Below, in pieces: positions 5,691 to 34,170 of a stretch of 34,880 bases of DNA (positions are counted from its first letter, which is position 1; every line of letters begins with the position of its first letter). Under the pieces are notes generated by a model. It was not told where the DNA came from. It saw nothing but the letters and a program-made list of their open reading frames with translations, and did not search any database. Location: the IMG/VR virus record IMGVR_UViG_3300025093_000066, positions 1 to 34,880 of that record. The stretch is one strand, 5' to 3'. The position numbers and the translations under genes are program-made. The stretch is from a virus.

Positions 5691-5707
5691 TATTAGTTGT
5701 GCTAATT
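5691..5707. promoter_or_regulatory. 17-bp palindrome, copy e
   Basis: The plus strand reads TATTAGT-TGT-GCTAATT; in gene direction AATTAGC-ACA-ACTAATA. It lies in the 65-bp gap before the DUF6447-like gene, 38 bases upstream of its ATG, and is followed in gene direction by AAAAT, so TAAAAT could serve as a -10 element. It belongs to the five-copy family WATTAGYnnnRCTAATW. Confidence 0.6.
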
Positions 5708-5717
5708 TTTGCAACAT

Positions 5718-6248
5718 CTAGTTGCCCAGCGGGTTGGTGGCGTCTATCGCCATCCACAGGTCATCCATGTCCCGCTCAAAGTTCTTAAGCCGTTGATCTA
5801 ACGTCTTCAGGGACTCTAGTTTTGCCTGTACCTTTAGCTCTGACTCGCTCGACGTTTTCTCTACTGCCGCGATCCGATCACGTATGTCGAGCAGTTCTTT
5901 TTGAGCGTCCATGATCTGTACAAGATTAGCGCCTAATTCCGACAACTTACCTTGCAAATTCTCGACGTCTGCCGCGTTCATGGCCTGCTTCATACCTGCC
6001 AGCTTCTTATCCATCTCCTGTAGGCGAACGGTGTTGGTTTCACGCAGGTCGTCAAAGCGTGCAGCAAGCGCTTCTGCTTGGGATGTGGCCGCAACAACGG
6101 CTTCGCTCTGCTCATTAAGTTGTGCAAAAAACTGAGACGCCGCCCAGATCCCACCGCCGATGGTCGAGCCGAACGTTAGGACGATGGCAATCCAGACGCC
6201 CTTTATGCTCGTACCGCCGACATTTACTTCAATATCTTCAAGGGCCAT
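5718..6248 (-). CDS. Membrane-anchored coiled-coil protein
   Basis: A 176-aa protein. A short hydrophilic start (MALEDIEVNVGGTSIKG) is followed by one membrane helix (WIAIVLTFGSTIGGGIWAAS, about 19-38) and then about 125 residues of heptad-like coiled coil rich in Glu, Lys, Gln and Ala. It ends MDDLWMAIDATNPLGN. I chose the ATG at 6248, inside the last bases of the upstream gene, because the 41 residues that a longer reading would add are an out-of-frame copy of the neighbour. Proteins beginning this way are familiar in marine phages but have no established role. The topology (N-terminal TM, long periplasmic or cytoplasmic coil) also resembles inner-membrane spanins; no partner outer-membrane lipoprotein lies next to it, so I do not call it one. 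Confidence 0.7.
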   Translation of the reverse strand: MALEDIEVNVGGTSIKGVWIAIVLTFGSTIGGGIWAASQFFAQLNEQSEAVVAATSQAEALAARFDDLRETNTVRLQEMDKKLAGMKQAMNAADVENLQGKLSELGANLVQIMDAQKELLDIRDRIAAVEKTSSESELKVQAKLESLKTLDQRLKNFERDMDDLWMAIDATNPLGN

Positions 6249-7080
6249 ACATGCATGCCTCTTTCTCTGTTTGGTCTTCGATAAACCAGCAGCCGCCTTC
6301 GGGGCTAGTGGTAAAAAACAAGCTCTTCGAGCCTTCGTCAATAACGTCAACGTCTGCCTTAAAGTAGCCATCCATATTGAGCATCACGGCTTGGCTTTGG
6401 CCTTCCCATTCAACGGTCAGCACCCCGGTAGAAGCGTCGAAGTACGACGTCTGCGATTCTTGATAGGTCACGCGCATGTCGTACGCAGCGTCGTCCGCTG
6501 AATCAAGCAACGTCGCGTCGTTGGCAACCGCCATATATGCGGCGGCAGTCTGTGCGGCTGCTTCTACCGCTTGTAGCGCGGTGTTGTAGTCTTCTACCTC
6601 AGCGTCATCTAGTAGTACGTCGTTGGCGTCTACATATTCTTGTAGCGCCATCGCTTCGCGACTATCCGGCGCTTGTTGGGCGTCCTGGGCCATTTCATTT
6701 ACGGTTGTAACCGCTATGACGGCTGTAGCAGCATCGACATACGCATCGATCGTGTCACTAAGGGTGTCCATGGCCTGCTGGCTCTGTTCCTCGAAGTACT
6801 GGTCGGCGTTAGGATCGAACGTATAGGTCGCGCTTCTAAAATCTAGAACCGCTTGGTTGTATGCATCCTGTTTAAACTTCTCAATAAGCCCAGGATCGAC
6901 TATGCCTGTGTTGGCGATGCCGCCAAGGCGTGCATAGTTAGCCATGCCGCCGATGGCTTGGATGCCGTATTTAAATGTGTCGCGGATCGCCTGTGAGCTA
7001 TTGACTAGGTTGTCCAGCTCGTTCGCGTTTAGTTGAGCGGAAGCGATCAGAGATAGACTCATCAGTGTCTTGCGCAGCAT
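6238..7080 (-). CDS. Exported protein, Ala/Asp-rich, unknown function
   Basis: A 280-aa protein with a Sec-type signal peptide (MLRKTLMSLSLIASAQLNAN, cleavage likely after ASA or ANA). The mature part is acidic and Ala-rich with long helices (about 80-200) and ends with a small Cys-containing segment (GGCWFIEDQTEKEACMYGP) that could form a disulfide. I recognise no family. Its start lies inside the 3' end of the preceding exported gene (83-bp overlap in another frame) and is supported by GGGGGT eight bases upstream. Two adjacent exported proteins suggest a periplasmic job such as superinfection exclusion, lysis timing or envelope modification; this is speculation. Confidence 0.75.
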   Translation of the reverse strand: MLRKTLMSLSLIASAQLNANELDNLVNSSQAIRDTFKYGIQAIGGMANYARLGGIANTGIVDPGLIEKFKQDAYNQAVLDFRSATYTFDPNADQYFEEQSQQAMDTLSDTIDAYVDAATAVIAVTTVNEMAQDAQQAPDSREAMALQEYVDANDVLLDDAEVEDYNTALQAVEAAAQTAAAYMAVANDATLLDSADDAAYDMRVTYQESQTSYFDASTGVLTVEWEGQSQAVMLNMDGYFKADVDVIDEGSKSLFFTTSPEGGCWFIEDQTEKEACMYGP

Positions 7081-7645
7081 TGTCGTTACCCCCAGCTAAC
7101 AGCTGATTATAAAATTCTTTATCATCTTCAAAGTCGGGTATCCACATTTTGGGATTCGACTTGATCTCTAGCAGGGCGCTCTTGCCCACCATCAACCGTC
7201 CTCCTTTAACGATTGGACATGGCGTAGCAGACATAAACATTGCTCTCCACACCTGGGCGTTCTGGCACATCAGACTGACGCTAGCCACTTTCATACCCAT
7301 GTTCGATAACGTAATCGCGTTAAGCCTTCGATTACATTCTGGGTCTTGCAGGTATTTACCAGATGACAAGCCAAAACCGACCATCTGAAATCCACCTGTT
7401 ACCGACCTTAAACACGACTGCTGGCCTGAGCTAATCAGGCTTGGACTAATCGCGCTATTGGCTGGCAAAGATCGACCGCTGCCAGCCCCGTTGTAGTTGT
7501 TCTCGACATTCCCATTATTGGAGTTGCTCGTATTGAGGTCTCCTTCAATGTCTACTCGCGGGTCTACTCCCGGTTCTATGTCTATTCGCTCCTGCGCCAA
7601 AGCAAGGCTTGGAGTTAGCAGCAGTAAAGCTAATAGTCGTTTCAC
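6998..7645 (-). CDS. Exported protein with Asn/Gly-rich N-terminal segment
   Basis: A 215-aa protein starting with GTG and a clear signal peptide (MKRLLALLLLTPSLALA, then QERIDIEPG). Residues about 35-60 are low-complexity Asn/Ser/Gly (TSNSNNGNVENNYNGAGSG). Four Cys follow in the mature part (SCLRS, PECNRR, LMCQNA, TPCPIV), which could form two disulfides in the periplasm. It has no lipobox Cys. The last 27 codons overlap the signal-peptide region of the next gene in a different frame. The C-terminus is hydrophilic and basic (STKRERAGQPSQ). Family and role unknown; exported status is well supported. Confidence 0.78.
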   Translation of the reverse strand: MKRLLALLLLTPSLALAQERIDIEPGVDPRVDIEGDLNTSNSNNGNVENNYNGAGSGRSLPANSAISPSLISSGQQSCLRSVTGGFQMVGFGLSSGKYLQDPECNRRLNAITLSNMGMKVASVSLMCQNAQVWRAMFMSATPCPIVKGGRLMVGKSALLEIKSNPKMWIPDFEDDKEFYNQLLAGGNDNAAQDTDESISDRFRSTKRERAGQPSQ

Positions 7646-7651
7646 CTTTAC

Positions 7652-7963
7652 CTACCAAGGAACACCATCGCTTTTTGTCGGAGTTTTTTGTTCTGCAATA
7701 TCTGCAGCGAGCGCTGTTTCAAGAGCGTCTTTATCTATACCCTGATGCGCATAGACCCAGTCAAGAACCGTAGCTTCTGTTAAATCATCATAGGGTATAA
7801 AGTCTTCAGCATCGGGATCGGGGGTGAAACTACAGGTTCCATACCTGTAGGAAATATACTCAACGTCACCTACTGTTTCCGATTCTGCAGCATGCCAATG
7901 GGCTGTAGTAACACCACCGTCTGGTAAGCTGCGTTCCATTGTTTGTATAGTCCAAACTGCCAT
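7652..7963 (-). CDS. Small conserved phage protein, DUF7936-like
   Basis: A 103-aa acidic protein. Pattern: MAVWTIQTMER, then a beta strand with TTAHWHAAESE, FTPDPDAEDFIPYDDLTE, VLDWVYAHQGIDKDALETAL and a C-terminal TPTKSDGVPW. The layout 'W..., x-F-x-P-Y-x-x-L-T-E, W-V-x-x...I-x-x-x-L, P...G-x-PW' matches a family common next to tail-fibre genes in marine phages (I believe DUF7936), function unknown. AAGGA precedes the ATG by about nine bases. It lies directly after the fibre-like 299-aa gene, so a virion or fibre-assembly role is plausible. Confidence 0.7.
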   Translation of the reverse strand: MAVWTIQTMERSLPDGGVTTAHWHAAESETVGDVEYISYRYGTCSFTPDPDAEDFIPYDDLTEATVLDWVYAHQGIDKDALETALAADIAEQKTPTKSDGVPW

Positions 7964-7975
7964 TTCATTCCATCC

Positions 7976-8875
7976 TTATGTGTTTTTATACACGCCATAC
8001 ATATCTGATAAAGAAATCTCTCCGCTCGCTGGCACCGATGAGTTCTCTGTAATGTCGGGGACTATTCCCCCACCTCGGTAAAGATCGCCCAAGGCTAGCG
8101 AGCCAGAGTCTGCAAAAAATGTTTGGACGCCTCCGAGGCTAATCTCACCGGAACTTACGGAGTATTGAGTAGTTGTCGCTGCCGCACTTGTTGGAGCAGT
8201 ATCGCCAGCAGAGGCAAAGCCTATCTTCTTAATGTAGTACTCGGCTGTGTTGCCTCGTCCGCCAAACCCCATATAACCGGTGGTGTTGTTGTAGGCGTTT
8301 ATCTCGCTCAGAGTACCTTCATAGCTGCGAGTCCAAGAAGCCGGTTCTGACTCATCCGCCTGCCACAGCTTGTTGTATACATTTACGTTTGACCCGCTAT
8401 CTACTGCCCGTAATCGCATCCATAGATAGTCCAAATGGTCCACGCCAGAAACCTCAGGGTTATTCCAAGTAGTGGAACCGTTGGCATTACTAGTAAGGTT
8501 TCTGTCTTTCTTTATATTTGCCCCTGACGATCCTGATGTCTCCGGTATGGCAAGGTTATAAGCTATAGAACGATTAGCGGAGGAGTCCCACCTTCCAGCG
8601 ATAGCGTTATGCGAAAAAGTGGTGGTTTTTGTGTTGTATGAACTATGTACAGGTTTAATTAAGCAAGCGATTTCAAAGTCGCCAACACTAGAGCCTGCGT
8701 CGTCAAACGAAAAAAAGCACGGTTTAAATGAGGTGTCAGAAGTGCCGTGAAGCACGTGCAAAGTAGTCTGACCATCGTCCGTGACAAGTTCAACAGTGTG
8801 GGCCGTGGAGCGGCGAGACGTAAAGTAGTCTGTCCAGTCTGATACGTCGTCGAAATCTACGAACCACGTAGCCAT
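7976..8875 (-). CDS. Tail appendage protein with lectin-like domain and ISLSD-type tail
   Basis: A 299-aa beta-rich protein. The body (about 1-215) begins FVDFDDVSDWTDYFT and contains segments typical of concanavalin/LamG-like jelly rolls (FEIACLIKP, YLWMRLRAVDSGSNVNVYNK, YYIKKIGFAS), which suggests sugar binding. The C-terminus carries two copies of a short motif, SGEISLGG and SGEISLSDMYG. I know the motif 'P-x-S-G-x-ISL-x-D' from the ends of many phage tail fibre proteins. It shares TAATG with the end of the S74 fibre gene, so the two may be translated together and form one appendage. No enzyme residues are seen. Confidence 0.75.
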   Translation of the reverse strand: MATWFVDFDDVSDWTDYFTSRRSTAHTVELVTDDGQTTLHVLHGTSDTSFKPCFFSFDDAGSSVGDFEIACLIKPVHSSYNTKTTTFSHNAIAGRWDSSANRSIAYNLAIPETSGSSGANIKKDRNLTSNANGSTTWNNPEVSGVDHLDYLWMRLRAVDSGSNVNVYNKLWQADESEPASWTRSYEGTLSEINAYNNTTGYMGFGGRGNTAEYYIKKIGFASAGDTAPTSAAATTTQYSVSSGEISLGGVQTFFADSGSLALGDLYRGGGIVPDITENSSVPASGEISLSDMYGVYKNT

Positions 8876-11247
8876 TACCGTCCCTGTTTAAGCTCATCTA
8901 TTTGAGCTTGCTGATCTTTCACTGCTTCTATTAGGAGAGCGATGATCTGATTGTAATCGACTGCTTTGTGGGTAGAGCCTCCATTCAGGGACTCTACTTC
9001 TTTAACAGCAGAGGGCATTACTTTTTCTACGTCCTGGGCAATCACGCCCGCTGAAGCCTTATCGTCTCTGCGCCATTGGAAAGTTACTCCGTCTAGGGAA
9101 TTAAGCTTATCCAAAGCGTTTTCTACTGGTTCTATGTTGTATTTGAGAGCGGCATCCGAAGCGACAGTCGTAGAGTAAGCAACGATGTCTGCATCGGCAT
9201 GAAACGTGCCTCCTGAAGCAAAACGAAATTCTTCTACGCCCGCTATGTTTACGCTTAGCTCGTCGGTGCTATGGTTGTATCTTAAGCGGCCTGCATCACC
9301 GTCATCGCTGTCTCCGAAATACAGGAAGCTTGAAGCGCTGGTGCCTCCAATTTGGATACGCATTATCGCGTCGTCACTACTCGCGGTACCTGTCGAGGCT
9401 ACCCTTATAGAAGGGTCTGTGGTCCCTTCAACATCTAGTAACTGATTAGGCGCGTTAGTGCCAATGCCGACCCGACCATCGTCGCGCACAATCATCAGCG
9501 CGTTCGTTACGTTTGAAGTTGCGTCTGCATGTGTAGCAGTCGCGTTGCGTGTAATGGCGAAGGCATCAGCCTGGTTGTACGGGTTGCCTGCGAACCATTC
9601 CACGGAATTCACTTGGTTGTGCATGAACGAACCAGCGCCGCGCACAGAGCCGTTAGAATCAAAAATGAGGCGGCTATGTGTGAAGCCGGTGCTGCCGTCG
9701 TTCTGTATGTGGAGGCTGGAAGCTACGTCGAGCGTGTAGGCGGGCGCGGTCGTACCTATTCCAAAGCGACCTGACGAGTCAAACCTCGCCATTTCAGTGC
9801 CACTGCCTCGACCTGTAAACGTAAGATTGTCGCCGTTATGGTAGTAACGAATGCCCCCCGCTGCCGTATTTCCAGTATCCCCAAAGTAGATGTTGTGGGT
9901 CGCAGTCGTGCCTGCCGAATAAAAGTACTGGGACACATCGCTGTCAGCCGTTGATCGAATGCGAGCCAACGTAGCGCCTGAATCGATTACGTCGAGCCTG
10001 TAGGTTGAAGCGGGTGTCCCACCTATACCAACGTCTTGAGCAGAAGTGATGTGTATCGCTTCAGCCCCATTCGTAAAAATCTCTAGGCTGTCGTCGCTGT
10101 GGTCGTATCTGAGCCGTCCTGGGGCAGAGGAGTCAGTGTCTCCAAAGTACAGCAAGCTCCTTGCAGAAGAGCCTCCGATTTGAATTCGTACAATGGCATC
10201 GTCACTGCTTGTAGTGCCAGTGCTCATTACTCTTATAGCCGGATCTGAAGCTCCCTGTACGTCCAGCTGGTAACTAGGTGATGGGGTATTTATTCCTAGC
10301 CTGCCTGTGCCACGGAATCTTGCTATTTCTGCGCCATCGATCTCGAACTCAATGGAGGAACTAGAAGCTCCGTCATTATTCGGGTCCGCAATAAGCCGAA
10401 GGTTTCCGTTGGCGGTATTTTGAATTTGTGCAATACCTTGCCCGCCAGTCCCGTCGCTGTCCTCAAGGCGAATCGTAGGGCTACTGTCCGTGATGTGGAG
10501 GGCGTTGCTCGGGGATGCGTTGCCAATACCGACCCGGCTAGATGAAGCGTCCGCGAAAAAAGCAGATGTGTTTACCGTAATGTCGCCTGAGACCGTCACC
10601 GTGCTACTGCTGGTAATCGCCCCCGTGCTGATGGCGTTTGTGGTCGTAGCGCCGCGATCCGTTACGGAATCAAGGGTATCGGTTTCTGTGTAACTTGTGA
10701 GGTATCCCTCAGACGAATGATCTCCCCAGCTGTAGGCCGTATCCCAGTTACTAGAATTAGCAATAGCAGTCTGTAAACCAGTGACGTTTGCTATGGTGTG
10801 GGCGTGGCTGTTATCAGCTACCGTTGTTGTAATGGTGACATCACCAACATCAGTGAGCGTCCCGGCCCCTGATACATCACCGCTAAGAGTGACCGTAGGA
10901 TCGGGTTTGTTTGCCACATCGGCCCAGTCGGTAGTGCTCGCTTCATCAGAGACGCTGTTCAGCAGCGCAGCAGTCATTCGCAGTTCTACCTTCACGCCTG
11001 CGTCGAACGCAGACGCGGTAGTGTTGTCCTGACCACGAGTCACGGTTAGGTTATTGCCACTGATCGCGGTGACTCTGACCACTTCCCGTGTAGGAGTGCT
11101 GGAGTCAGAATCGATCGTTACAAACGTGTGATCGCCTGAATTTAAAGTTGGAAAACCAGACGCGTCTGCAACGGCAATGGTAGTAGCCGAAGCCGTAATG
11201 GCCGACGACAATGTTGTCGCAGCGTTGTTACTAAACTTAACCGCCAT
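8875..11247 (-). CDS. Tail fibre/spike with C-terminal S74 intramolecular chaperone
   Basis: A 790-aa fibre. The first ~100 residues (MAVKFSNNAATTLSSAITAS..., DHTFVTIDSDS, NNLTVTRGQDNT) are a common virion-attachment head. The middle is a Ser/Thr/Asp-rich beta stalk. A module of about 80 residues is duplicated, near 325-405 and again near 600-680 (SSDDAIVRIQIGG and SSDDAIMRIQIGG, each followed by LYFGDxD, GRLRYxHS). The end is a Peptidase_S74 / endosialidase intramolecular chaperone domain beginning at Ser697 (SDAALKYNIEPV, with the conserved Ser-Asp and Lys) and ending in a coil (EAVKDQQAQIDELKQ). By family knowledge this domain trimerises the fibre and is cut off before that Ser. AGAGGA upstream supports the start. 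Confidence 0.88.
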   Translation of the reverse strand: MAVKFSNNAATTLSSAITASATTIAVADASGFPTLNSGDHTFVTIDSDSSTPTREVVRVTAISGNNLTVTRGQDNTTASAFDAGVKVELRMTAALLNSVSDEASTTDWADVANKPDPTVTLSGDVSGAGTLTDVGDVTITTTVADNSHAHTIANVTGLQTAIANSSNWDTAYSWGDHSSEGYLTSYTETDTLDSVTDRGATTTNAISTGAITSSSTVTVSGDITVNTSAFFADASSSRVGIGNASPSNALHITDSSPTIRLEDSDGTGGQGIAQIQNTANGNLRLIADPNNDGASSSSIEFEIDGAEIARFRGTGRLGINTPSPSYQLDVQGASDPAIRVMSTGTTSSDDAIVRIQIGGSSARSLLYFGDTDSSAPGRLRYDHSDDSLEIFTNGAEAIHITSAQDVGIGGTPASTYRLDVIDSGATLARIRSTADSDVSQYFYSAGTTATHNIYFGDTGNTAAGGIRYYHNGDNLTFTGRGSGTEMARFDSSGRFGIGTTAPAYTLDVASSLHIQNDGSTGFTHSRLIFDSNGSVRGAGSFMHNQVNSVEWFAGNPYNQADAFAITRNATATHADATSNVTNALMIVRDDGRVGIGTNAPNQLLDVEGTTDPSIRVASTGTASSDDAIMRIQIGGTSASSFLYFGDSDDGDAGRLRYNHSTDELSVNIAGVEEFRFASGGTFHADADIVAYSTTVASDAALKYNIEPVENALDKLNSLDGVTFQWRRDDKASAGVIAQDVEKVMPSAVKEVESLNGGSTHKAVDYNQIIALLIEAVKDQQAQIDELKQGR

Positions 11248-11272
11248 TCCAAAGTCCTCTTATGATCGCCTA

Positions 11273-11698
11273 CTAGGAAACAGTTACTGTCCAAGTAATC
11301 GTCATTGTGTCTGAGGCACCTTTGTTTACGACTGAAAAAACGGTTCTGCAAAGCATGGTGCCACTTGATGAAGCGTTGAATAGACCCGCTTCTGTAAGCG
11401 CACCCGTGCCTTCGCCCGCGCCAAACGATGCTACGTAAGCAACTTCGTTATTCGTCACAGTTGACGACGTAAGAGCGTTACGGTCTGCTTCACTACCTAA
11501 CGCAGTGTTGCCTGCAGCAGCGGCAGTAGACGAAGTGCCTATCGCCATGTGGCTCATAACGTTTTCAGAAGTCCCTGCCATACGGCTAGCGACGTAGTCC
11601 TTACCGGCGTCGACCACCAAGTTAGGTACCTCTTGTACTACTTCGCCATTAATAGCGATGGCCAAGTGGCCCTTCATAGTTAAAGCGTCATGTAACAT
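11273..11698 (-). CDS. Small tail-appendage structural protein
   Basis: A 141-aa beta-rich protein (LAIAINGEVVQEVPNLVVDAGKDYVASRMAG, shortened: NGEVVQEVPNLVVD). An ASRM...MAIGTSSTA stretch is followed by a strand-rich C-terminus with AGLFNASSSGTMLCRTVF. I associate the pattern 'N-L-V-x-x-x-G...A-x-G-x-G...E-x-G-L-F' with a family of small phage tail-fibre-region proteins. AGGAG eight bases before the ATG fixes the start. It lies between the repeat-rich 309-aa gene and the large S74 fibre, fitting a baseplate or fibre-connecting piece. No enzymatic residues. Confidence 0.75.
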   Translation of the reverse strand: MLHDALTMKGHLAIAINGEVVQEVPNLVVDAGKDYVASRMAGTSENVMSHMAIGTSSTAAAAGNTALGSEADRNALTSSTVTNNEVAYVASFGAGEGTGALTEAGLFNASSSGTMLCRTVFSVVNKGASDTMTITWTVTVS

Positions 11699-11709
11699 TG
11701 TGGTTACTC

Positions 11710-12639
11710 CTAATTGTTAAACGGCACAGTATTAAGTGCGCCTGCGTTTAGTACCGAGCTAGCGGTAGATACGTTTTGAATTGAGACCGTTTCAGTAAAA
11801 CCAAAACTGTCCGTAAGTGATTTGCCGACGCTACGAGCCGTTACCTCAACAACCGAAAAACTATCGGAGGAGGCCTTGCTAAATGCGTAAGTGTGCTCTT
11901 CAGACATCGCCACGATGTTTGTCTTAACACCTTGGGTTTCTTTCTCGACGCCGCCGACCGTAGCGTTATCGTCGACGGAGAAAGCGTCGGTAAACGCACG
12001 GCTGTAAGTCACCACTCGTGTGAAAACATCTGAGGCAGTAACTGTTTCCGACTCAGACCGGCCCAGGGCTAAATAGGATGCGTCGCTGACATTGACGGCG
12101 TCAGCGGGTGTGTTCCCAAACTCCTTAGACACCGCATCGCTCGTAGACAAAGTTTCAGTGCGGTTAATGCCTACTTCTATATCCGGTCGTACATCTAGCA
12201 TCGTGACGGAGTGCGAGAAGTTTCTAGCGAAAGAAAGCTGGTGGCTAAGTACTTCTGTTACCGTTGCCGTATCACTAAGCGACTTACCAATTGCGCTATA
12301 CACTTCATCAGACACGGCGAATGAGTCAGTGATTGAACGACCGAGATCGATATAGGCTAGGTCACTAATAATGAACGTATCGCCTCGCAAGTAACGATTA
12401 AGCGCGTTGGGATTAAGAGCAAGGTTGGTTGTAACAACGTTTTGAAAATGAACAGATGACGCTAACTTCTGATAGGCAATTACCGGTTGTAGTCGAGAGT
12501 AGTCTGCGACTAGCTGGTAAACAGCCTTAGCTACAGATACGGCTGGCTTACGAAACTCAGGCGCTACAATACGAAGACCCCTGGTTGAAACAGAGGCCCG
12601 TATATTTGGTGACGCTTGTACGAAAAGCCGAATAGCCAT
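11710..12639 (-). CDS. Repeat-containing virion appendage protein
   Basis: A 309-aa protein. After an N-terminal region without recognisable repeats (about 1-95) it is built from degenerate 20-40-aa repeats with the core GkSlTDsFsvsDevt (examples: GRSITDSFAVSDE, GKSLSDTATVTEV, GRSESETVTASDV, GKSLTDSFGFTET). Such Ser/Thr/Asp repeats form beta solenoids or fibrous stalks in phage appendages. Its ATG shares bases with the stop of the preceding gene (TAATG), implying coupled translation. I find no known enzyme signature. Function beyond structural is not supported. Confidence 0.75.
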   Translation of the reverse strand: MAIRLFVQASPNIRASVSTRGLRIVAPEFRKPAVSVAKAVYQLVADYSRLQPVIAYQKLASSVHFQNVVTTNLALNPNALNRYLRGDTFIISDLAYIDLGRSITDSFAVSDEVYSAIGKSLSDTATVTEVLSHQLSFARNFSHSVTMLDVRPDIEVGINRTETLSTSDAVSKEFGNTPADAVNVSDASYLALGRSESETVTASDVFTRVVTYSRAFTDAFSVDDNATVGGVEKETQGVKTNIVAMSEEHTYAFSKASSDSFSVVEVTARSVGKSLTDSFGFTETVSIQNVSTASSVLNAGALNTVPFNN

Positions 12640-13013
12640 TAGTCGAAGTCGCTTCGAACCTTGAACTTAACCAGATCGTGCACTGTCTGAATTCCGCCGT
12701 TAGAGAACGTAACCTCTAGCTCGCCCTCAAACACGCCTGCCGTATCCAACGTACCGCTAGGGAAGTCCGTAGCAGCTTTTCCATTAGAAGCATCAGTGAC
12801 GGTGCAGGTCAGAGTAGATTTAACTGTCGTACTACCCAGCTCTCGTATACGCAGTCTGACTGACGCACCAGTCAGGTCTATTGCCGCCCACGTGGAGTCG
12901 TCATTTGCGTCTAATGTGCTGCCAGTAGCCGCCGTGTTGCTATCTTTCAGGGTGAAAGTAAGCTCAGGCAGTGTGTCTCCCGTAACGAGATTGAGTGTGT
13001 CTGAATACGCCAT
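12639..13013 (-). CDS. BppU-like N-terminal (baseplate/fibre) beta domain protein
   Basis: A 124-aa single-domain protein. MAYSDTLNLVTGDTLPELTFTLKD leads to a second half with LTGASVRLRIRE and a C-terminal FEGELEVTFSNGGIQTV. This is the Ig-like fold arrangement of the N-terminal domain of phage baseplate upper proteins (BppU/DUF2479 type: 'GDT-L-P...D-L-T-G-A-S-V-x-x-x-I...G-x-Y/F-x-x-x-x-x-V-x-x'). In this phage the domain stands alone, so it may be an adaptor that docks fibres. GGTAGG precedes the ATG. It is the first gene after the palindrome at 13041-13057 and so may head the appendage unit. Confidence 0.72.
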   Translation of the reverse strand: MAYSDTLNLVTGDTLPELTFTLKDSNTAATGSTLDANDDSTWAAIDLTGASVRLRIRELGSTTVKSTLTCTVTDASNGKAATDFPSGTLDTAGVFEGELEVTFSNGGIQTVHDLVKFKVRSDFD

Positions 13014-13040
13014 GTCGAGTACCTACCTAATTCGAAAGTA

Positions 13041-13057
13041 TATTAGTTTGACTAATA
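13041..13057. promoter_or_regulatory. 17-bp palindrome, copy a
   Basis: The plus strand reads TATTAGT-TTG-ACTAATA, a perfect 7+3+7 inverted repeat. It lies in the 56-bp gap between the endolysin stop and the next ATG, 27 bases upstream of that ATG. In gene direction the motif runs straight into TATACT, a good -10 hexamer. Copy b at 26946 is its exact reverse complement over all 17 bases. Confidence 0.65.
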
Positions 13058-25570: not shown

Positions 25571-25574
25571 GCTC

Positions 25575-26720: not shown

Positions 26721-26945
26721 GATGGCCTCCAATAAATTGACAACAAGTTTCAGTGGCACACGCCACTGTCATTAGCCGACTTAATGGAGCGGCTAATCCG
26801 TATTCCCGTATCGTGGGACGACGAACTAGCGCTGATTTACGAGGTGCGACCTCGGCAGGTTTAACGCCTTTGCAGGCGGGGTTTTAACGTTTGTAACGTA
26901 AACGACACGGCCAACTATCGTGCTGACGGACGAACTTACATAGGA
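26721..26945 (-). promoter_or_regulatory. Hairpin-rich 5' leader of the major capsid gene
   Basis: This 225-base gap between palindrome b and the capsid ATG holds no ORF that I trust, but several dyads occur in minus-strand order. CGCCT-GCAA-AGGCG (26865-26878, GNRA loop); GAGGT-CGC-ACCTC (26841-26853); a weak TCCC/GGGA (26802-26816); ATTAGCCG with an 11-base loop and CGGCTAAT (26771-26797, 8 pairs); and CAGTGGC-GTGT-GCCACTG (26751-26768, 7 perfect pairs). The ribosome site GGAGG follows in an unpaired stretch. It could stabilise capsid mRNA, bind a regulator or be processed. Base pairing is visible; function is inferred. Confidence 0.55.
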
Positions 26946-26962
26946 TATTAGTCAAACTAATA
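26946..26962. promoter_or_regulatory. 17-bp palindrome, copy b
   Basis: The plus strand reads TATTAGT-CAA-ACTAATA, a perfect 7+3+7 dyad and the exact reverse complement of copy a. In gene direction it is TATTAGTTTGACTAATA, followed by TATCCT overlap (ACTAATATCCTATG), a fair -10. It lies 17 bases past the stop of the 39-aa gene and begins the intergenic leader of the capsid gene. Confidence 0.65.
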
Positions 26963-26979
26963 CTAAAATGCAATACTTA

Positions 26980-27099: not shown

Positions 27100-27101
27100 A
27101 G

Positions 27102-27413: not shown

Positions 27414-27426
27414 TTTTACAACCTCG

Positions 27427-28476
27427 CTAGAGAATATCGCCGCGTAGGCGCTTTAAGGTCGCCTCAGGAAGGGCATCGAACTCTTCTTCCGACAAACTAT
27501 TCAGGTCAAACGCCGACTCGCCACGACTTGCGGAGCTTTCGCCCGGTAACTCAGGCGGTTGAGCGTCTGCAGCCTTCAGTTTTCGGTTAACTTCGGCCCG
27601 TTTTTTGGCCACCTCGTCCGTTTGCTGGGCTTTTGGCGCTGTGCTACCGGCCAAAGAGGTGGTTTCTTCGGCGGTATCGACCAAGCTGTATTCGTTAATC
27701 ACGTATTTCGCCGCTTTCGACAGTGCCAAGACGGGGTTTTCGCCCTTGACGATGAATGCATCGCGCAGATCGATGACTTCCTGGGTGTACCCTTCGTTGT
27801 ACTGGTCGCTTTTTGCGTCAAAAACGGGGAAATTCGCTTCCAACTCCGCTGCAGCCTGCTGCAAAGCGTTGGCTTGCTGCGACTGATTGACCGTTTGGGT
27901 CATCCGCTGTGTCATTTCGTACTCAATTTGAGCACGTTCCGCACGGCGGATCTCCGATCTAAGCTCTGCAGCCTTCTTAGCGTCGCCATCAAGCAGCAGA
28001 TTCTGGTATTCGACCTCTTTTTCAGCAAAGTCGTACTCTTCAGGCGCATCTTCAGCAGGCGCTTGCGACGCAAGCAGGTCGTCGATCTGCTTTTGCAGCG
28101 CCTTGTTCTTGGTCAACACCTCGTCGAAACGCGCCTTCGGGATCTTTTTGACCACTTTTTGGGCTTCTGGCTCTGCTTCCGCTTCTACTACCGGCGCTTC
28201 GTCTTCTGCGGCTAAGGGGAGTGGCTCTTCGTCGTCAACTTCTGGCTCAGGTTCCTCTTCAGCCTCTTCAACGTCTTCAGCTTCCTCCGCAACCGGCGCT
28301 TCCTGTTCTTCGACAGCTTTCGCCTCCAGTTCTTCAGCGGGTTCTGTCTCATCAGCTGGTTCCTCGCCTAGCCCAAAGTTGAGGTCGAAGCCTTCTTCTG
28401 CTGACTCCTGATCAATATCAGCACCGGGCATCGCTTCAAATTCAACGGTTTCTGCTTTGTCGGCGTTTTCGCTCAT
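27427..28476 (-). CDS. Capsid scaffolding protein
   Basis: A 349-aa, highly acidic, helical protein between portal and capsid genes, the standard place for a scaffold. Residues about 1-112 are almost all Glu, Ala, Asp, Pro and Val (EELEAKAVEEQEAPVAEEAE and similar). Residues 114-250 form coiled coil (VLTKNKALQKQIDDLLASQ; AELRSEIRRAERAQIEYEMT; QQANALQQAAAELEANFPVF). The C-terminus has a short acidic/hydrophobic motif (AFDLNSLSEEEFDALPEATL) that probably docks on coat protein. No protease motif is seen, so maturation by cleavage is not evident. AGGAAA precedes the ATG. Confidence 0.82.
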   Translation of the reverse strand: MSENADKAETVEFEAMPGADIDQESAEEGFDLNFGLGEEPADETEPAEELEAKAVEEQEAPVAEEAEDVEEAEEEPEPEVDDEEPLPLAAEDEAPVVEAEAEPEAQKVVKKIPKARFDEVLTKNKALQKQIDDLLASQAPAEDAPEEYDFAEKEVEYQNLLLDGDAKKAAELRSEIRRAERAQIEYEMTQRMTQTVNQSQQANALQQAAAELEANFPVFDAKSDQYNEGYTQEVIDLRDAFIVKGENPVLALSKAAKYVINEYSLVDTAEETTSLAGSTAPKAQQTDEVAKKRAEVNRKLKAADAQPPELPGESSASRGESAFDLNSLSEEEFDALPEATLKRLRGDIL

Positions 28477-28477
28477 G

Positions 28478-30601
28478 TCAATTTCCTATTGGTTTTGTGT
28501 TTTTAGCCGCCGCCTGCATCGCTGTAGCCGCAATGCGGGTGGCTGACTGATTTTCAGACTGCGTCATCCGCGTCTGGTTGGTGAGATCGGCAAGCTCCCG
28601 ACGCAGTTGCAGTTCCTGCATCTTCATTTCAAGCTTGGCCTGCAGTTCAGCCATACGCAGCTGCGGTTCGACATCAGCGGTGTCCTGTACCTTGGCGATG
28701 TTGACCGCCGCTTCGGACTGTAGCTTCTGTACCTCAGCTTCCAGCTTGGCCATCGCCAGCTGTTCTGCCTGCATCGCTACCTGCTGCTCAATCATTGCGG
28801 CCTGCTGCTGCTCAGGCGACATTTCGACGCCGGTTAGCATGCGGATGCGCTTAGCCAGTTCTTCTTTACGCGCCAAATGCGAGTATTCAATGATGGCGTC
28901 ATCTGGGATGGCCACGCCGACCTGACGTAGGTTGAGCGCTTCAGCGAACTGAATCTCGTCAAATGTGTCTCGCGCCGGGGCAGACGCGACAATGACGTCG
29001 TACTCACCCAGCGTTAGATCGTTGACGATCCGGCCTTCGGGCGTCATTTCGTTGATGACCATCGGCTCGCGAGGCTTCAGCGGATCTTCTTCGTTGGTAA
29101 TCTGAATGACGCGTTGCTCGGTGTAGAAGGTCTGGATCAGATTCAGAACCTTTTCCGCTAAGTACTGCCGCGCTTTGCTCAAGTTCTCCAATGGAACCTG
29201 AATCATGATCGCGCCACGATTCTGCTTAGCTTGGATAGCGACGCCCGATACTTCAGCGCTGTCAGAACCGAGCATTGAGTCGTTGATCCCACTGATGGTC
29301 TTGATGTTCAGCGCCGCTTTTTGAGCGATGCGGTCGAGACCAGTAGGAATCTGGTTCGGCTGAATCTTCGATGGCGGGTTTGACCCTCGGTTATACTCAA
29401 GCACGAGGCCCGTCTCCGCGCCGTGCTCCTCCAAGTCGTCAGCCGTCATGCCAGTCAGCGATCCACTTTCAACCAACCAGCCGCTGTTGGCGGTGGTGTT
29501 GACGATGTGAAGCTCCTGGCTCGCGATCTTGTTCAGCTGCTCCTGGGGGGAAAGCAGGTTACGCACCATGCCGAACGGGCGACCACGCCGGAAGTACGCG
29601 AAATACGGCACAACGGTGAAGTCGTTGTATGGCGACCAGTCATCGTGGAGGACGACCTTGTCGCAGGTAACCGTCCAGCGAACCTTCCGCTTAACCTTAC
29701 TGATTAGCGACAGGCTGTACTGCTTCGCGAACTTCTTGGCCTTGGCCTCGGACCACGCATCGGGAGCCTCGCGAGAGTCCCCTGTGTCGGGGTCAACGAA
29801 GCACAGTACGCGAGACATCCGCTTGTGCTGACGCTCGACAACGCGCAGCGCTTTGACGTTGCGGTACTCACCCTCACCGGGCAGGCCCATGCCAAGGTAG
29901 TCGTCCTCTGCGTCGAGGTCACCGTACCGGTTCTCTTCGTACTCGACGGAGTCGCGTCCGAATGAGTTACCGTTCTCCGCAATGAACCGTAGGTCTTCGG
30001 CCTTCTTCTTGCCGTACAGCTCTTCGATCTCGTCGAGTGTCATCCACTTCGTTTCGAAAATCTCGTTCCAAGACTTCGGATCGTACTCCTTGGCATCTGG
30101 GTCGATGAGGACGTCCAACGGATCTTTGGCCGTGATGCGGATCTCACCTTCAACGTGGTCCGAGAAGTCCATGCGGACATCGAAGTACCCACGGCCATCC
30201 ATAATCAGACCATCACTGAAGACCTGCTGCTCGACCCAGTCCAGCTTGTTGTTCTCAGAGATCTGCATGAACAACTTCGTCAGAGTAGCGGCCACTTCTT
30301 CGTTGCCGCCCCGTCGAGGCTTAAAGCGGATATCTGCACGGCGCGTGGACTGTTCTCCGAGGACCGTGTTCACGGTCGGGAGGATCGTGTTGATGGTCAA
30401 CGCAGGACGGCCCTCTGCTTCTAGGGCATCAGCGTCGAACTCGTCCCACTGGTCGCCGCGATAGAACGCATCGCACTTTTTAGCCATTTCAATGTATTCA
30501 AGGTGACCGTTGTCCCTTGCGCGGATATACCTATCCCATTGGTTGTGCGCGATGACTTGCTCTTCGTCTGGAGATAGCTTCGTTGTCTTCTTCGCCTTCA
30601 T
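28478..30601 (-). CDS. Portal protein, P22-type
   Basis: A 707-aa dodecameric vertex protein through which DNA enters and leaves. The P22-type portal signatures are clear: KKCDAFYRGDQWDEF (about 41-55), RPALTINTILPTVNTVLGEQ (about 65-84), ADIRFKPRRGG, VFSDGLIMDGRGYFDVRMD (about 126-145), KDPLDVLIDPDAKEYDP, and LNKIASQELHIVNTTANSGW in the wing/crown region. The last ~150 residues are Gln/Glu/Ala-rich coiled coil (MSPEQQQAAMIEQQVAMQAE onward), the barrel-like end seen in this group. Length is close to the P22 portal (725 aa). The stop is next to the scaffold ribosome site. The upstream gap (30602-30716) has a possible terminator. Confidence 0.92.
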   Translation of the reverse strand: MKAKKTTKLSPDEEQVIAHNQWDRYIRARDNGHLEYIEMAKKCDAFYRGDQWDEFDADALEAEGRPALTINTILPTVNTVLGEQSTRRADIRFKPRRGGNEEVAATLTKLFMQISENNKLDWVEQQVFSDGLIMDGRGYFDVRMDFSDHVEGEIRITAKDPLDVLIDPDAKEYDPKSWNEIFETKWMTLDEIEELYGKKKAEDLRFIAENGNSFGRDSVEYEENRYGDLDAEDDYLGMGLPGEGEYRNVKALRVVERQHKRMSRVLCFVDPDTGDSREAPDAWSEAKAKKFAKQYSLSLISKVKRKVRWTVTCDKVVLHDDWSPYNDFTVVPYFAYFRRGRPFGMVRNLLSPQEQLNKIASQELHIVNTTANSGWLVESGSLTGMTADDLEEHGAETGLVLEYNRGSNPPSKIQPNQIPTGLDRIAQKAALNIKTISGINDSMLGSDSAEVSGVAIQAKQNRGAIMIQVPLENLSKARQYLAEKVLNLIQTFYTEQRVIQITNEEDPLKPREPMVINEMTPEGRIVNDLTLGEYDVIVASAPARDTFDEIQFAEALNLRQVGVAIPDDAIIEYSHLARKEELAKRIRMLTGVEMSPEQQQAAMIEQQVAMQAEQLAMAKLEAEVQKLQSEAAVNIAKVQDTADVEPQLRMAELQAKLEMKMQELQLRRELADLTNQTRMTQSENQSATRIAATAMQAAAKNTKPIGN

Positions 30602-30680
30602 AGTCTGTTACTCGTTTGTATTGGCATTTACACTTTTGTAGTTGCCCAAACTGCTCCAAGCGGGGCTATCTCGTCTTAGA

Positions 30681-30700
30681 AAAAACTTTGGTACCAAGCT
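30681..30700 (-). terminator. Weak terminator-like dyad before the portal gene
   Basis: In the 115-base gap after the Fn3-like gene, minus-strand RNA has GCUUG-GUAC-CAAAGUUUUUUC: a short dyad around the TTGGTACCAA palindrome (30688-30697) followed by six U. The stem is short and contains a bulge, so it is a weak or accidental terminator. Nothing else was recognised in the gap. Confidence 0.3.
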
Positions 30701-30716
30701 GGTTTCTTACATTCCC

Positions 30717-31145
30717 CTACTGGATCTGGCACGTTTGGCCTGGGTCGCACGCCAGCACCCGTGCCGTCCCCGTCACCGGACCCGGTGTCTGAGGTGCCAG
30801 CGCGTCGACGGAGTTGAAAAAAAAAGCAACCTGATTTGAGAACCCCGATTCATTTTGATCGAAGTCGAGGGCGGTCATGACCACGTATATCTCCGCTTGG
30901 TCCGACAGGCCCGCCAAGTTGAGCGTGTGATTGGTGGCCAGCGGGTCTTCAACCGGCTCGCTCTGCGTATAAATGCCGGTGGGGCTGAACTTCCAGTAAA
31001 CCCGATACCCGGCCAGATCGGTCAGCGGCGTACCGTCGACGTTCTCGGTCGGTGCAAGCCACTCCAAATCAATCGCAATGTCTGCGGCGTTTGCAGCCGC
31101 CCCGTGTAGCAAAAACGCTACAGCGACTAAGAATCTAGCAACCAC
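30717..31145 (-). CDS. Exported fibronectin-III-like protein
   Basis: A 142-aa protein with a signal peptide (VARFLVAVAFLLHGAAANAA) and one fibronectin-type domain: IDLEWLAPTENVDGTPLTDL, AGYRVYWK, then LNLAGLSDQAEIYVVMTALD, FDQNESGFSNQV. 'G-Y-R-V-Y-W...V-T-A-x-D-x-x-x-x-E-S-x-x-S-N' is the usual Fn3 end. The tail (TARVLACDPGQTCQIQ) has two Cys. I prefer GTG at 31145, seven bases after GGAGGT; that ribosome site is itself the Gly-Gly codons of the mini-lipoprotein gene in the other frame. Two Cys and export suggest a periplasmic or surface role, perhaps blocking reinfection; unproven. Confidence 0.72.
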   Translation of the reverse strand: MVARFLVAVAFLLHGAAANAADIAIDLEWLAPTENVDGTPLTDLAGYRVYWKFSPTGIYTQSEPVEDPLATNHTLNLAGLSDQAEIYVVMTALDFDQNESGFSNQVAFFFNSVDALAPQTPGPVTGTARVLACDPGQTCQIQ

Positions 31146-31206
31146 CGCCGCCACCTCCGCAACCTACTAAAACAAGAATCAAAAACGTAATAACCAGCAG
31201 CCTCAT
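31135..31206 (-). CDS. 23-aa minimal lipoprotein
   Basis: A 23-codon gene: MRLLVITFLILVLVGC followed by six Gly and a final Cys. The first 15 residues are a signal helix and LVGC is a lipobox (Leu-Val-Gly-Cys), so the mature product would be a lipidated Cys-Gly6-Cys heptad-plus-one peptide. AGGAGA lies eight bases before the ATG, immediately after the terminase stop, so it is well placed for translation. Its last codons overlap the next gene in a +1 frame and provide that gene's ribosome site. Such poly-Gly after the lipobox usually leads into a full lipoprotein, so a frameshift product with the Fn3-like gene must be considered. Confidence 0.6.
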   Translation of the reverse strand: MRLLVITFLILVLVGCGGGGGGC

Positions 31207-31218
31207 GGGGCGTCTCCT

Positions 31219-32874
31219 TTAGGCACTCATCGCGGACTTAGCGCGTGTTGTATTAAACATATTGGGGAGGCGGTCCCTCCAAGACGGTTCGTGAACCACC
31301 TTCTCTTGGAACGTCGTGAACTCACTCATCATTAAGCCAAGCCACGCCAATGCGTCGACCTGATCGTCATGGACCCCGTTGGGGAAGCGAAGCAGCTCAG
31401 CGACCAGCGGGCCGGTGAACACTTCATCTCTCGGCAGAAACACCATCCCTTGCTGCATACGACCTTGAATGGCCCGAGCACGGGCCTCCTTGTCGCGTCT
31501 GCCTGTCTTCAAGTCTTTGAAGTAAGCCTCGTGTAAGCCACGTTCGCGAACGCGCTTCTCTAGAAACGGACCGAGGGCCATTTCTATGTGTCCTTTTTCG
31601 ATGCCTATGATCGACGGTCGCCAGACCTCGTACAGGTCTAGGATCTGCTCAACCAGTTCGAAACCGTCAAAACGTCCACGGACCACATCTACGATGAACA
31701 GCTGGTCGTACTCATCGATGCCAGCGACCATGCCTACCGTGTAGTCGTTCCTGTCCCGTTTTCCGATGGCCAAGTCCCACGCGCAGTAGAAGCGCATACG
31801 GTCTGTGTCAACCTCGTCGCGGTCGTAGTAACGAATCATTTCGCGACTGAAGTAGTCGCCATCATCTGCTACGGGGTTTTGCTGATATAGCGCTGACCAA
31901 TCGCGAGGGCCAACGGCTTTTTGGATACGTGTGAGCGACTCGACGTCATAGCGCTCTGGGTGGAGTGCCTCGCCAGCGTCCCTGAACGACTCATCTTCCT
32001 CCGCGATCGCTGGGTAACGGACCACTTCCCACGCATCACCGCCCTCGGTCGACGCTTTGAGGAGACGGCCAGCGAGGTCGTCGTCGTGCCAGCGCGTCAA
32101 AATGACGAGCACACCGCCGCCTGGAGCTAGGCGAGTATAAGCAGTACTAGTATACCAATCCCAGTTGCTGTCTCTATTGTTCTGGCTCTCAGCATCTTCG
32201 CGGTTTTTGACAGGGTCGTCGATAACCAAGACATGAGCGCCCTTCCCAGTAATGCCGCCCCCAACGCCAGCAGCAACGAAACCGCCACCATGAGTAGTAA
32301 GCCAAGCTTCAGCAGATTGCGAATCTGGGTCCAGACGGGTTTTAAACGCTGTTTTGTAGGACGTTTCGCGGAGGAGTTGGCGGACTTTACGGCTGAAGCC
32401 CATAGCGAGCGACCCCGAGTAAGAGCAACTGATGAACTCATGGTCAGGGTTTCTACCGAGATGCCAGGCAGGGAACGCAATCGACGCCAGGGTCGACTTT
32501 CCGTGACGGGGCGGCATAAAGAGCATAAGTCTTGGAGACTTTTTCTCCACCACATCTTTACTGAATTGCTCAAGTCGCCGACAAATGTCTTTGTGGACCC
32601 AACCAGCCGAGTAGTCTGGATTGAATCGTTCAACGAAAGGAAGAAGTCTTTTACGCGTGAGGAAGCGGAGTGCCAACTCTGCTCTAGCTTTGTCTTCAAC
32701 GGTTTGCTCCTCTGGAGGTAGCGCCTCGCTAGAAGCATCAGCAGGATTGGGCAAGGCTTCAGCGTCATCGGCGGCGCAGTAAACACACAGACCGCTCGTT
32801 TCGCTGGCGTAAAGAGTCTCAGGGTGCTTGTTCCCGCACCTGTCACACTCCCGCAATGCGATATCGTCGATCAA
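31219..32874 (-). CDS. terL: Terminase large subunit with N-terminal zinc ribbon
   Basis: A 551-aa packaging motor. The ATPase has Walker A PPRHGKST (121-128), Walker B VLVIDD (215-220), and coupling motif LTRWHDDD (259-266). The nuclease has CAWDLAIG (Asp367) and the later IIGIEKG and HDDQVDALAW acidic clusters. The N-terminus has Cys10, Cys13, Cys30 and Cys33 (CDRC...CVYC), a zinc ribbon that most large terminases lack. The start is TTG at 32874, which overlaps the small-subunit stop (TTGA); no ATG lies between it and the zinc ribbon, and the GGAG is 11 bases away, so coupling by overlap is likely. Family is certain. Confidence 0.95.
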   Translation of the reverse strand: MIDDIALRECDRCGNKHPETLYASETSGLCVYCAADDAEALPNPADASSEALPPEEQTVEDKARAELALRFLTRKRLLPFVERFNPDYSAGWVHKDICRRLEQFSKDVVEKKSPRLMLFMPPRHGKSTLASIAFPAWHLGRNPDHEFISCSYSGSLAMGFSRKVRQLLRETSYKTAFKTRLDPDSQSAEAWLTTHGGGFVAAGVGGGITGKGAHVLVIDDPVKNREDAESQNNRDSNWDWYTSTAYTRLAPGGGVLVILTRWHDDDLAGRLLKASTEGGDAWEVVRYPAIAEEDESFRDAGEALHPERYDVESLTRIQKAVGPRDWSALYQQNPVADDGDYFSREMIRYYDRDEVDTDRMRFYCAWDLAIGKRDRNDYTVGMVAGIDEYDQLFIVDVVRGRFDGFELVEQILDLYEVWRPSIIGIEKGHIEMALGPFLEKRVRERGLHEAYFKDLKTGRRDKEARARAIQGRMQQGMVFLPRDEVFTGPLVAELLRFPNGVHDDQVDALAWLGLMMSEFTTFQEKVVHEPSWRDRLPNMFNTTRAKSAMSA

Positions 32875-33413
32875 GTGTTGTCTGGCTCCAAATAGTCCGT
32901 TTGCTTACCGGCAATCTCTAACAACTCTTCATCTGAGAGGCGTTCTAGCTGCTTGGCGGTGGAATTAAGATTGATGTTTATCTGCGTCGCGTTGTCTGGC
33001 GTGCTTAAGCCATGCAACTTCACCAGCGAATCGACTGTATTCTTCATCTCCGTCGCGTTCGCTGCTGATGAATAGGCTTCCATGTACATCAGATGCGCGT
33101 TTTGACGCTCGAATTTGACTTCCTCGCGCATCTGCTCACGAAAATACTGGAGTGCTTTCTGCACAGCTGGTCGCTTGGACGCTTCACGTGCCGTTGCGTA
33201 GCTCGAATAACCGGCACCACGACCTGCAGCGGCGATAGTCATCCCGCTGGCCATGAGCATCACAAGCTTCTCCTGCTGCACGGTTAGGTCATTGAGCGTC
33301 AGACCCATGAAAGGCATGTGGGACTGGAACTCTATATGGTCGCTGACCAGTTCAGTGGAGGAGTCTGAGTGATCCTGTTCTCGACTCGTCAAGGTCGTCG
33401 CTGATTCCTTCAT
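32871..33413 (-). CDS. terS: Terminase small subunit
   Basis: A 180-aa DNA-recognition subunit. Helix-turn-helix region about 43-75 (LTVQQEKLVMLMASGMTIAA, AGRGAGYSSYATAREASKRP), oligomerisation helices about 78-130 (VQKALQYFREQMREEVKFER...), and a C-terminal acidic segment (RLSDEELLEIAGKQTDY) that probably binds the large subunit. No ribosome site is visible before the ATG at 33413, which lies 62 bp inside the preceding gene; in-frame ATGs at codons 33 and 36 are alternatives but also lack one. Next to the large subunit in overlapping frame (TTGA). Confidence 0.88.
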   Translation of the reverse strand: MKESATTLTSREQDHSDSSTELVSDHIEFQSHMPFMGLTLNDLTVQQEKLVMLMASGMTIAAAGRGAGYSSYATAREASKRPAVQKALQYFREQMREEVKFERQNAHLMYMEAYSSAANATEMKNTVDSLVKLHGLSTPDNATQININLNSTAKQLERLSDEELLEIAGKQTDYLEPDNT

Positions 33414-33630
33414 CTAAAAACACAAAGATTGGTGCGTTGTCTCCGAGTTCATGGAGGCCCAGGCTGAACAAATAGTCCGCAAGGTCTTGGACGTCCATCC
33501 CGCCATGGGTGACTAACTCCAAAACCTTGTACGCGTCGTAGACCAAGACTTCTTTGCCCTCGCCACGAAGCCCCGTGCCGATAGCCGCTTCGTTTAAACC
33601 TTCTATCGCAACCATTTCGACTTGGCTCAT
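33352..33630 (-). CDS. Small conserved phage protein upstream of terminase
   Basis: A 92-aa acidic protein: MSQVEMVAIEGLNEAAIGTG, LRGEGKEVLVYDAYKVLEL, MDVQDLADYLFSLGLHELGD, then APIFVFLDEG. The pattern 'V-x-x-x-G-L-x-x-A-I-x-G...V-x-V-Y-D-x-x-K-x-x-x-x-L...M-x-x-x-x-x-x-x-Y-F...G-x-x-x-P-I-F-V' is a family I have seen before terminases in marine phages and cyanophages; function unknown. The ATG has no ribosome site and only seven bases separate it from palindrome c. If that motif holds a promoter, the mRNA could be leaderless. It overlaps the terminase small-subunit gene by 62 bp. Confidence 0.78.
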   Translation of the reverse strand: MSQVEMVAIEGLNEAAIGTGLRGEGKEVLVYDAYKVLELVTHGGMDVQDLADYLFSLGLHELGDNAPIFVFLDEGISDDLDESRTGSLRLLH

Positions 33631-33637
33631 GGGGCGA

Positions 33638-33654
33638 TATTAGCGGAACTAATA
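33638..33654. promoter_or_regulatory. 17-bp palindrome, copy c
   Basis: The plus strand reads TATTAGC-GGA-ACTAATA; in gene direction TATTAGT-TCC-GCTAATA (one mismatch in the dyad). It fills the 25-bp gap between the HNH stop and the next ATG, seven bases upstream of that ATG, with no ribosome site between. In gene direction it continues as TATCGCCCC before ATG. Confidence 0.6.
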
Positions 33655-33655
33655 C

Positions 33656-34129
33656 TTAGTCGCAAGACTGATCGTATATGCACTTGATCCACCAGTAGAA
33701 CATGTCCATTGAGAGGGTATGACGCATTGTGTTGGCACGGTCGCACACCAGTTGGACATTGCCTGCGATATAGCCACGTTCCGGTACGACGCGGTCCAAA
33801 CTAGCATTAAAGTCTTTGCGACCCTGGCCGTCCTTGTGGTGGGTCATTGGTACGTTCGACAGTGCGCACCTACCGTTTTGGGCTTCCCACAGCGCGATGA
33901 TTTCGTCGAGAGTGATACTAAAAGTAACGTCCGTTCCGACGCGCTTGCTTTTGGACTGCTGGTACAGCTTAGTTAGGTACGACTGATAGGTTGCACCTAC
34001 GCGTTTTTCGTAGAGAGTACTCTCGCACGCCAGACACGTGTTCTTACGCTTGGTCTTGCCGTATTTCTGAAAGGCGTCTATCGGTTTTGCTTCCCTGCAG
34101 CGGATACACACCTTTGTATCCTTTTCCAT
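33656..34129 (-). CDS. HNH-type zinc protein / putative HNH endonuclease
   Basis: A 157-aa protein with an N-terminal zinc ribbon (Cys8, Cys11, Cys32, Cys35; CIRC...CLAC) and a C-terminal HNH-like half: CALSNVPMTHHKDGQGRKD, NASLDRVVPERGYIAGNVQL, CDRANTMRHTLSMDMFYWWI. 'N-A-S-L-D-R-x-x-x-x-x-G-Y-x-x-G-N-V-Q-x-V-C-x-x-x-N-x-M-x' is the hallmark of HNH-like phage proteins often found next to terminases, where HNH nucleases assist packaging. No ribosome site precedes the ATG; TATAAC lies just upstream, so a short-leader or leaderless mRNA is possible. First gene of the late block. Function partly inferred. Confidence 0.8.
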   Translation of the reverse strand: MEKDTKVCIRCREAKPIDAFQKYGKTKRKNTCLACESTLYEKRVGATYQSYLTKLYQQSKSKRVGTDVTFSITLDEIIALWEAQNGRCALSNVPMTHHKDGQGRKDFNASLDRVVPERGYIAGNVQLVCDRANTMRHTLSMDMFYWWIKCIYDQSCD

Positions 34130-34153
34130 ACGAGCGTTATACAGGGGAACGCG

Positions 34154-34170
34154 AATTAGTCCAGCTAATT
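34154..34170. promoter_or_regulatory. 17-bp palindrome, copy d
   Basis: The plus strand reads AATTAGT-CCA-GCTAATT; in gene direction AATTAGC-TGG-ACTAATT (one mismatch in the dyad). It is 24 bases upstream of the HNH gene ATG and next to an A/T-rich tract. TATAAC (minus strand, within the last 13 bases before the ATG) is a possible -10. Confidence 0.55.

Follow-up and report, generated by a model that had tools for sequence, protein, structure and literature searches.

Dispersed promoter palindromes as candidate operators of a lambda-CI-like repressor in a temperate podovirus group

Repressor sites dispersed over a phage genome are already known in kind from several phages. The phiC31 repressor acts on conserved inverted repeats of about 17 bp, present in many copies at promoters and mainly in the early region of this actinophage. 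The operators of P1 C1, 17 bp long, are numerous and scattered along the genome, and several overlap sigma70-type promoters; the P1 operators are asymmetric, the P1 late promoters need an activator, and we know of no kinship of C1 to lambda CI. Mycobacteriophage L5 and cluster A phages carry 20-30 repressor sites (stoperators) dispersed over the genome, with a consensus that differs in heteroimmune phages; stoperators lie mostly away from promoters, are oriented with transcription and block elongation (PMC6550527). A cluster A repressor was described as a monomer on an asymmetric site (PMC9283540). Here, we analyse a stretch of viral DNA of 34,880 nucleotides (IMG/VR record IMGVR_UViG_3300025093_000066, positions 1 to 34,880; hereafter the window), in which a 17-bp palindrome, WATTAGYnnnRCTAATW, recurs in gaps between genes.

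Comparison with relatives suggests the palindrome being the operator of the phage's own lambda-CI-like repressor (XRE, HTH_3), dispersed over the genome of a temperate podovirus and blocking individual promoters, the late ones included, a reading to which we assign a probability of about 0.88 from sequence comparison. The repressor, encoded in the early region, would bind the palindrome as a dimer with one subunit per arm. Lodged in the spacer of a host-sigma70-type promoter and covering its -10, the dimer would deny RNA polymerase access to each transcription unit, whether early or late, in the lysogen. Superinfecting phages that share the operator class would be silenced likewise, and all units would be freed once the repressor is lost. 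Repression is the natural reading of this arrangement, as a dimer placed in this way should keep the polymerase out. We infer direct binding, repression and the window phage itself carrying such a repressor. Several traits of dispersed-operator immunity are present, i.e. many copies of one site, mostly between genes, and, in relatives, a phage repressor with a matching site class.

Five palindromes in a late-region window

The window is a fragment of a late region with genes for terminase, portal, capsid, internal virion and tail-fibre proteins. Its phage is a distant relative of Pseudomonas phage KPP25, Aeromonas phage phiA008 and Acidovorax phage AP1, and no isolate phage genome gave a near DNA match to the window. 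The five copies reported by the sequence-only reading are all found at their positions and match the pattern exactly:

5691..5707, minus strand: candidate operator copy, in gene direction AATTAGCACAACTAATA, before the small gene 5431-5652; promoter with -35-like TTGCAA 5714-5709, 16-bp spacer and -10-like TAAAAT 5692-5687
13041..13057, minus strand: candidate operator copy, perfect 7+3+7 dyad, before the gene 12639-13013; promoter with weak -35 CTGTAG 13068-13063, 17 bp and -10 TAATAT 13045-13040
26946..26962, minus strand: candidate operator copy, perfect 7+3+7 dyad, at the promoter of a leader RNA and the major capsid gene; -35 TTGCAT 26973-26968, 17 bp, -10 TAATAT 26950-26945; position kept in many relatives
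33638..33654, minus strand: candidate operator copy at the promoter of 33352-33630, upstream of the terminase genes; -35 TTGCGA 33665-33660, 17 bp, -10 TAATAT 33642-33637; orthologous promoter compared in 65 loci
34154..34170, minus strand: candidate operator copy upstream of the endonuclease VII/HNH-like gene 33656-34129; the palindrome lies over the -35 region of a separate -10 TATAAC 34141-34136, with no -10 in the arm

A scan of shuffled sequence and a check of relatives for gaps kept without the motif had been named beforehand as tests on which the idea could fail, and both turned out in its favour; 100 dinucleotide shuffles give an expectation of 0 copies against the five observed. Allowing up to two mismatches adds only two places in the window (823 and 32136; 0.76 expected), and a matrix built from the relatives scores the five copies at 19-26 bits and the next window site at 7.4. 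About 4% of the window lies outside open reading frames (ORFs), in line with the little non-coding DNA noticed earlier, and nonetheless all five copies are located in gaps before minus-strand genes. Four of them are plainly intergenic; the copy at 5691 overlaps ORF 5431-5757 only when this is extended to its GTG, and lies outside the gene with the likely start, the in-frame ATG at 5652, which has a good ribosome site. The claim of two perfect 7+3+7 dyads in opposite orientation holds for the pair at 13041 and 26946, which are exact reverse complements of each other, and not for the copies at 5691, 33638 and 34154, in which the inner pair is T.G or C.A or the outer pair is A.A.

The palindrome recurs at equivalent gaps in relatives, as a search proposed along with the original observation could now establish. 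A terminase search of viral contigs gave at least 599 related stretches; among the best 80, which were examined for the motif, 33 terminase-bearing contigs contain it exactly. Three positions are common: one precedes the HNH gene, one the capsid leader and one the small gene that lies upstream of terS. The 34154-type site is kept at the equivalent place, about 500 bp from the 33638-type site. Both arms are fixed across relatives and the core nnn is free to vary. Three long relatives (54-61 kb) carry 14 (G001, one site in the terminal repeat being counted twice), 9 (G005) and 7 (G006) exact copies in both early and late regions. The proposed control of late modules is thus borne out insofar as late promoters carry sites, and is too narrow insofar as the array in relatives extends genome-wide, with the early region included. 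The motif is absent from the distant relatives KPP25, phiA008 and AP1.

Two side observations concern single sites and genes. G005 (3715) and G006 (37335) share an exact motif inside the giant virion protein gene, in similar context and with a TTG hexamer upstream, reflecting either coding conservation or an internal promoter/operator. The endonuclease VII/HNH-like protein encoded at 33656-34129 (minus strand) also gives a weak PHROG match, named decoy of host sigma70 (E 2.5e-5).

Position of the sites within promoters

Alignment of the sites in gene direction reveals TTG at -12 to -10 before ATTAG and AT after CTAAT. Judged by its letters, this layout is that of a sigma70-type promoter, with a -35, a 17-bp spacer holding the palindrome and a TAATAT -10 overlapping the right arm. 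Counted over 128 non-redundant sites, those deep inside genes being excluded, a -35-like hexamer (at least 4/6) at 17-bp spacing is present on the gene side in 36 and on the opposite side in 7, about 5 being typical at other offsets; TTG at the -35 place is found 40 times on the gene side and 5 times on the other. The clearest promoters in the window are those of the copies at 26946 and 33638. The -10-like hexamers had originally been placed just beyond the palindrome. This has to be revised for 13041, 26946 and 33638, where the better -10 is TAATAT, composed of the right arm plus AT and lying 17 bp from a -35-like hexamer; the copy at 5691 does have TAAAAT beside it, at 16-bp spacing, and at 34154 a separate TATAAC follows the palindrome.

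The 33638-type promoter allows a comparison across 65 relatives. Its -35, CTTGTGA or CTTGCGA, is kept in most of them and the spacer class varies, with 27 having the motif, 13 a near variant such as ATTAGn4GGTAAT, 5 the dyad TAGTACn5GTACTA and 20 something else. Loci with this promoter and neither an ATTAG nor a TAGTAC palindrome are L018-L024, L056, L060 and L065-L075; some contain other candidate dyads (AGTACTn3AGTACT; GGTn6ACC versus GCTn6AGC), and they possibly represent further operator classes or virulent relatives. As a separate observation, in most of the 65 relatives no more than about 6-8 nt separate the end of the -10 of this promoter (window 33630-33642) from the ATG, and the mRNA is therefore probably leaderless.

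This promoter geometry bears on whether the sites might instead serve an activator, or a dual regulator, switching on the late transcription units, the other half of the original operator proposal. Sites do occur at late promoters, and the -35 hexamers are often poor, as with activated promoters. The palindrome, however, occupies a normal 17-bp spacer and overlaps the -10, where a bound dimer would block the polymerase, and sites also lie at early operons, beside repressor and integrase in G001 and in a Motiliproteus prophage described below. We consider activation unlikely, and the repressor half of the proposal is the one strengthened by promoter position, by co-occurrence with a CI-like repressor, by the site class differing with this repressor and by the prophage of a cultured host.

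The earlier suggestion of an RNA hairpin, acting as a transcript processing site or as a terminator, fares worse. For the two window copies at 13041 and 26946, a 7-bp stem closing a 3-nt loop is conceivable, but the inner pair is complementary in only 49/128 non-redundant sites and mismatched in 79/128, with C.A and T.G being over-represented (Fisher p=0.008, against pairing) despite the invariant arms; the motif moreover precedes the inferred start, in the stretch from -35 to -10. We regard a hairpin function as very improbable. The early promoters of phage N4 are hairpins with a stem, a 3-nt loop and a total length of about 17, and the stem, loop and length of the palindrome resemble these promoters for the virion RNA polymerase. 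Here, however, base pairing in the stem is not conserved, ordinary -35 and -10 hexamers surround the site, and the site class changes with the CI-like repressor, which makes an N4-type promoter extremely improbable.

A CI-like repressor and its probable operator classes

We return to the palindrome as a repressor operator and to the protein that would bind it. G001, which has a terminal repeat and is apparently a complete genome, encodes a tyrosine integrase, an excisionase-like protein and a 215-aa HTH_3 protein. Such a repressor-like protein is present in G001, G002, G003, G005 and G006 and was not found in G004, KPP25 and phiA008. PF01381 (HTH_3) scores above cut-off in the N-terminal domain of the repressors of G001, G003, G005 and G006, and the closest PDB match is lambda CI (E 1.9e-7). 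In an AlphaFold model (pLDDT 87), the N-terminal domain matches 1lmb, lambda repressor on its operator, over 68 columns with an rmsd of 1.1 Å. No Pfam S24 match, i.e. no S24/LexA self-cleaving C-terminal domain, was detected in the repressors, and whole-length fold matches to 3bdn and 7jvt are weak. By sequence match and model, the protein thus has a CI-like DNA-binding domain, and our claim extends to this domain, not to a full lambda CI.

Repressor and motif tend to be found together. A search made with the repressor only gave 80 loci, 58 of which have at least one motif copy. Among 27 longer records, a sample picked mainly for length and not blind, the motif is present in 12/18 with the repressor, 2 more having the second dyad, and in 1/9 without it, that one being a 27-kb fragment. 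Just beyond the repressor gene, G001-G003, G005 and G006 each carry a site of their own class, as weaker copies in G001, G005 and G006 and as class B in G002 and G003.

The class of the site differs with the repressor. G002 and G003 have 12-13 copies of TAGTAn7TACTA, likewise 17 bp long, and the recognition helix of their repressor is QSNFSHYIA versus Q[SG]A[IF]S[HQ]YLN in the motif-bearing class. The second dyad TAGTACn5GTACTA occupies the same orthologous promoter with the same -35. ATTGCn7GCAAT, with 16 copies in L140/L141, was rejected as an operator, its 30-bp periodicity inside an 1184-aa gene identifying it as a coding repeat.

Integration as a prophage is seen in relatives, through the integrase of G001 and in two cultured bacteria, with terL about 60% identical. 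A scan of bacterial genome contigs with a repressor-alignment profile found nothing, and it was the terminase search that found these prophages. In Motiliproteus coralliicola C34 (4.2 Mb), 7/7 exact ATTAGn5CTAAT lie within 1,362,365-1,422,530 of one contig (about 60 kb), surrounding a terminase 61% identical to that of the window. Within 80 kb around this terminase there are 21 sites with up to one mismatch, all in the same interval and mostly near gene starts, and the only homologue of the repressor in this genome, 216 aa long, lies in the prophage stretch, flanked by two sites and with the integrase adjacent. The related prophage of Parendozoicomonas haliclonae encodes a repressor and an integrase of its own. 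It lacks ATTAG sites and has TATAGGn5CCTATA in 5 exact and 8 near copies; 9/13 are not deep in a called gene, and the repressor is directly preceded by two. These prophages also inform on whether the phage exploits the site of a host-encoded regulator. The promoters do resemble host sigma70 promoters, but Motiliproteus has no exact copy outside the prophage region and the operator type among related phages differs together with the phage repressor, so that we judge a host regulator quite improbable.

Several observations weigh against the palindrome being the operator of a CI-like repressor. The window holds no repressor gene, its early region lying outside the contig. The repressor-bearing records G009 (partial gene at a contig end), G013, G017 and G024 lack the exact motif; near variants are present in G009, and no clear operator was found in G013, G017 and G024, nor a clear palindrome in several shorter loci. 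A good -35 placed exactly 17 bp away is missing at most sites, the promoter of the copy at 34154 is laid out differently, and 32/226 unique sites lie deep within a called ORF. A simple residue-to-base code did not emerge either: a one-residue code from recognition helix to operator type was sought and not found, L180-L184 having QSAFSHYL yet TAGTA-type sites.

Weighing both sides, we lean towards a wider view, in which a widespread uncultured temperate podovirus family would silence itself promoter by promoter, structural operons included, and in which the specificity of its CI-like repressor may have been switched several times, with about a dozen operators per genome (ATTAG, TAGTAC, TATAGG) being rewritten in concert at orthologous promoters.

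Capsid leader RNA and comparison with known systems

Between the 26946 promoter and the major capsid gene, the window contains a second conserved element:

26772..26932, minus strand: conserved structured leader RNA
L086:11899-12056; L187:8056-8212; L191:14795-14959: further copies of the leader RNA

The leader RNA has about 160 nt and is conserved across 23 relatives, which differ in operator class. Of its 38 predicted pairs, 11 show compensatory changes, with 98.9% of cells pairing and a covariation score of 0.292 versus 0.126 for shuffles and at most 0.065 for slid controls. The covariance model also matches two marine genome bins (L187 and L191); it found no leader RNA in the Motiliproteus and Parendozoicomonas prophages or in the searched KPP25, phiA008 and AP1 stretches. 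The RNA has no Rfam match and is a candidate new RNA family.

The analysis turns anonymous marine contigs into a temperate group with readable immunity, in which sequence is enough to assign the repressor, the operator class and the promoters under control; if true, immunity groups could be read from metagenomic sequence. How a repressor and its operators change jointly is a puzzle for every dispersed-operator phage, and the orthologous promoters with a repressor-dependent spacer palindrome represent a natural experiment on a repressor and a dozen scattered operators changing together. Motiliproteus coralliicola C34 is a candidate for a cultured lysogen, which makes the system testable. We found no published description of such a system in this phage group, in a literature search made without most subscription journals.

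Compared with the L5 stoperators, the sites are likewise dispersed and their class differs with the repressor; they differ in being palindromic and embedded in promoters and in their putative repressor being lambda-CI-like. The many dispersed 17-bp sites at sigma70-type promoters are shared with P1, which differs in its operator asymmetry, its non-CI repressor and its activator-dependent late promoters. With phiC31, the system has in common many inverted repeats of about 17 bp at promoters, whereas the repressor is a different one and late structural promoters carry sites as well. Lambda CI at OR and OL shares the 17-bp operator length, the HTH fold and two conserved glutamines; in contrast, lambda groups its six operators in two clusters and relies on antitermination to control its late genes, while the sites described here are mostly single and genome-wide, and their putative repressor has no detected S24 domain. 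As far as can be read from the genomes, what sets this system apart is the combination of a lambda-CI-like repressor with palindromic sites inside individual promoters, the late structural operons included.

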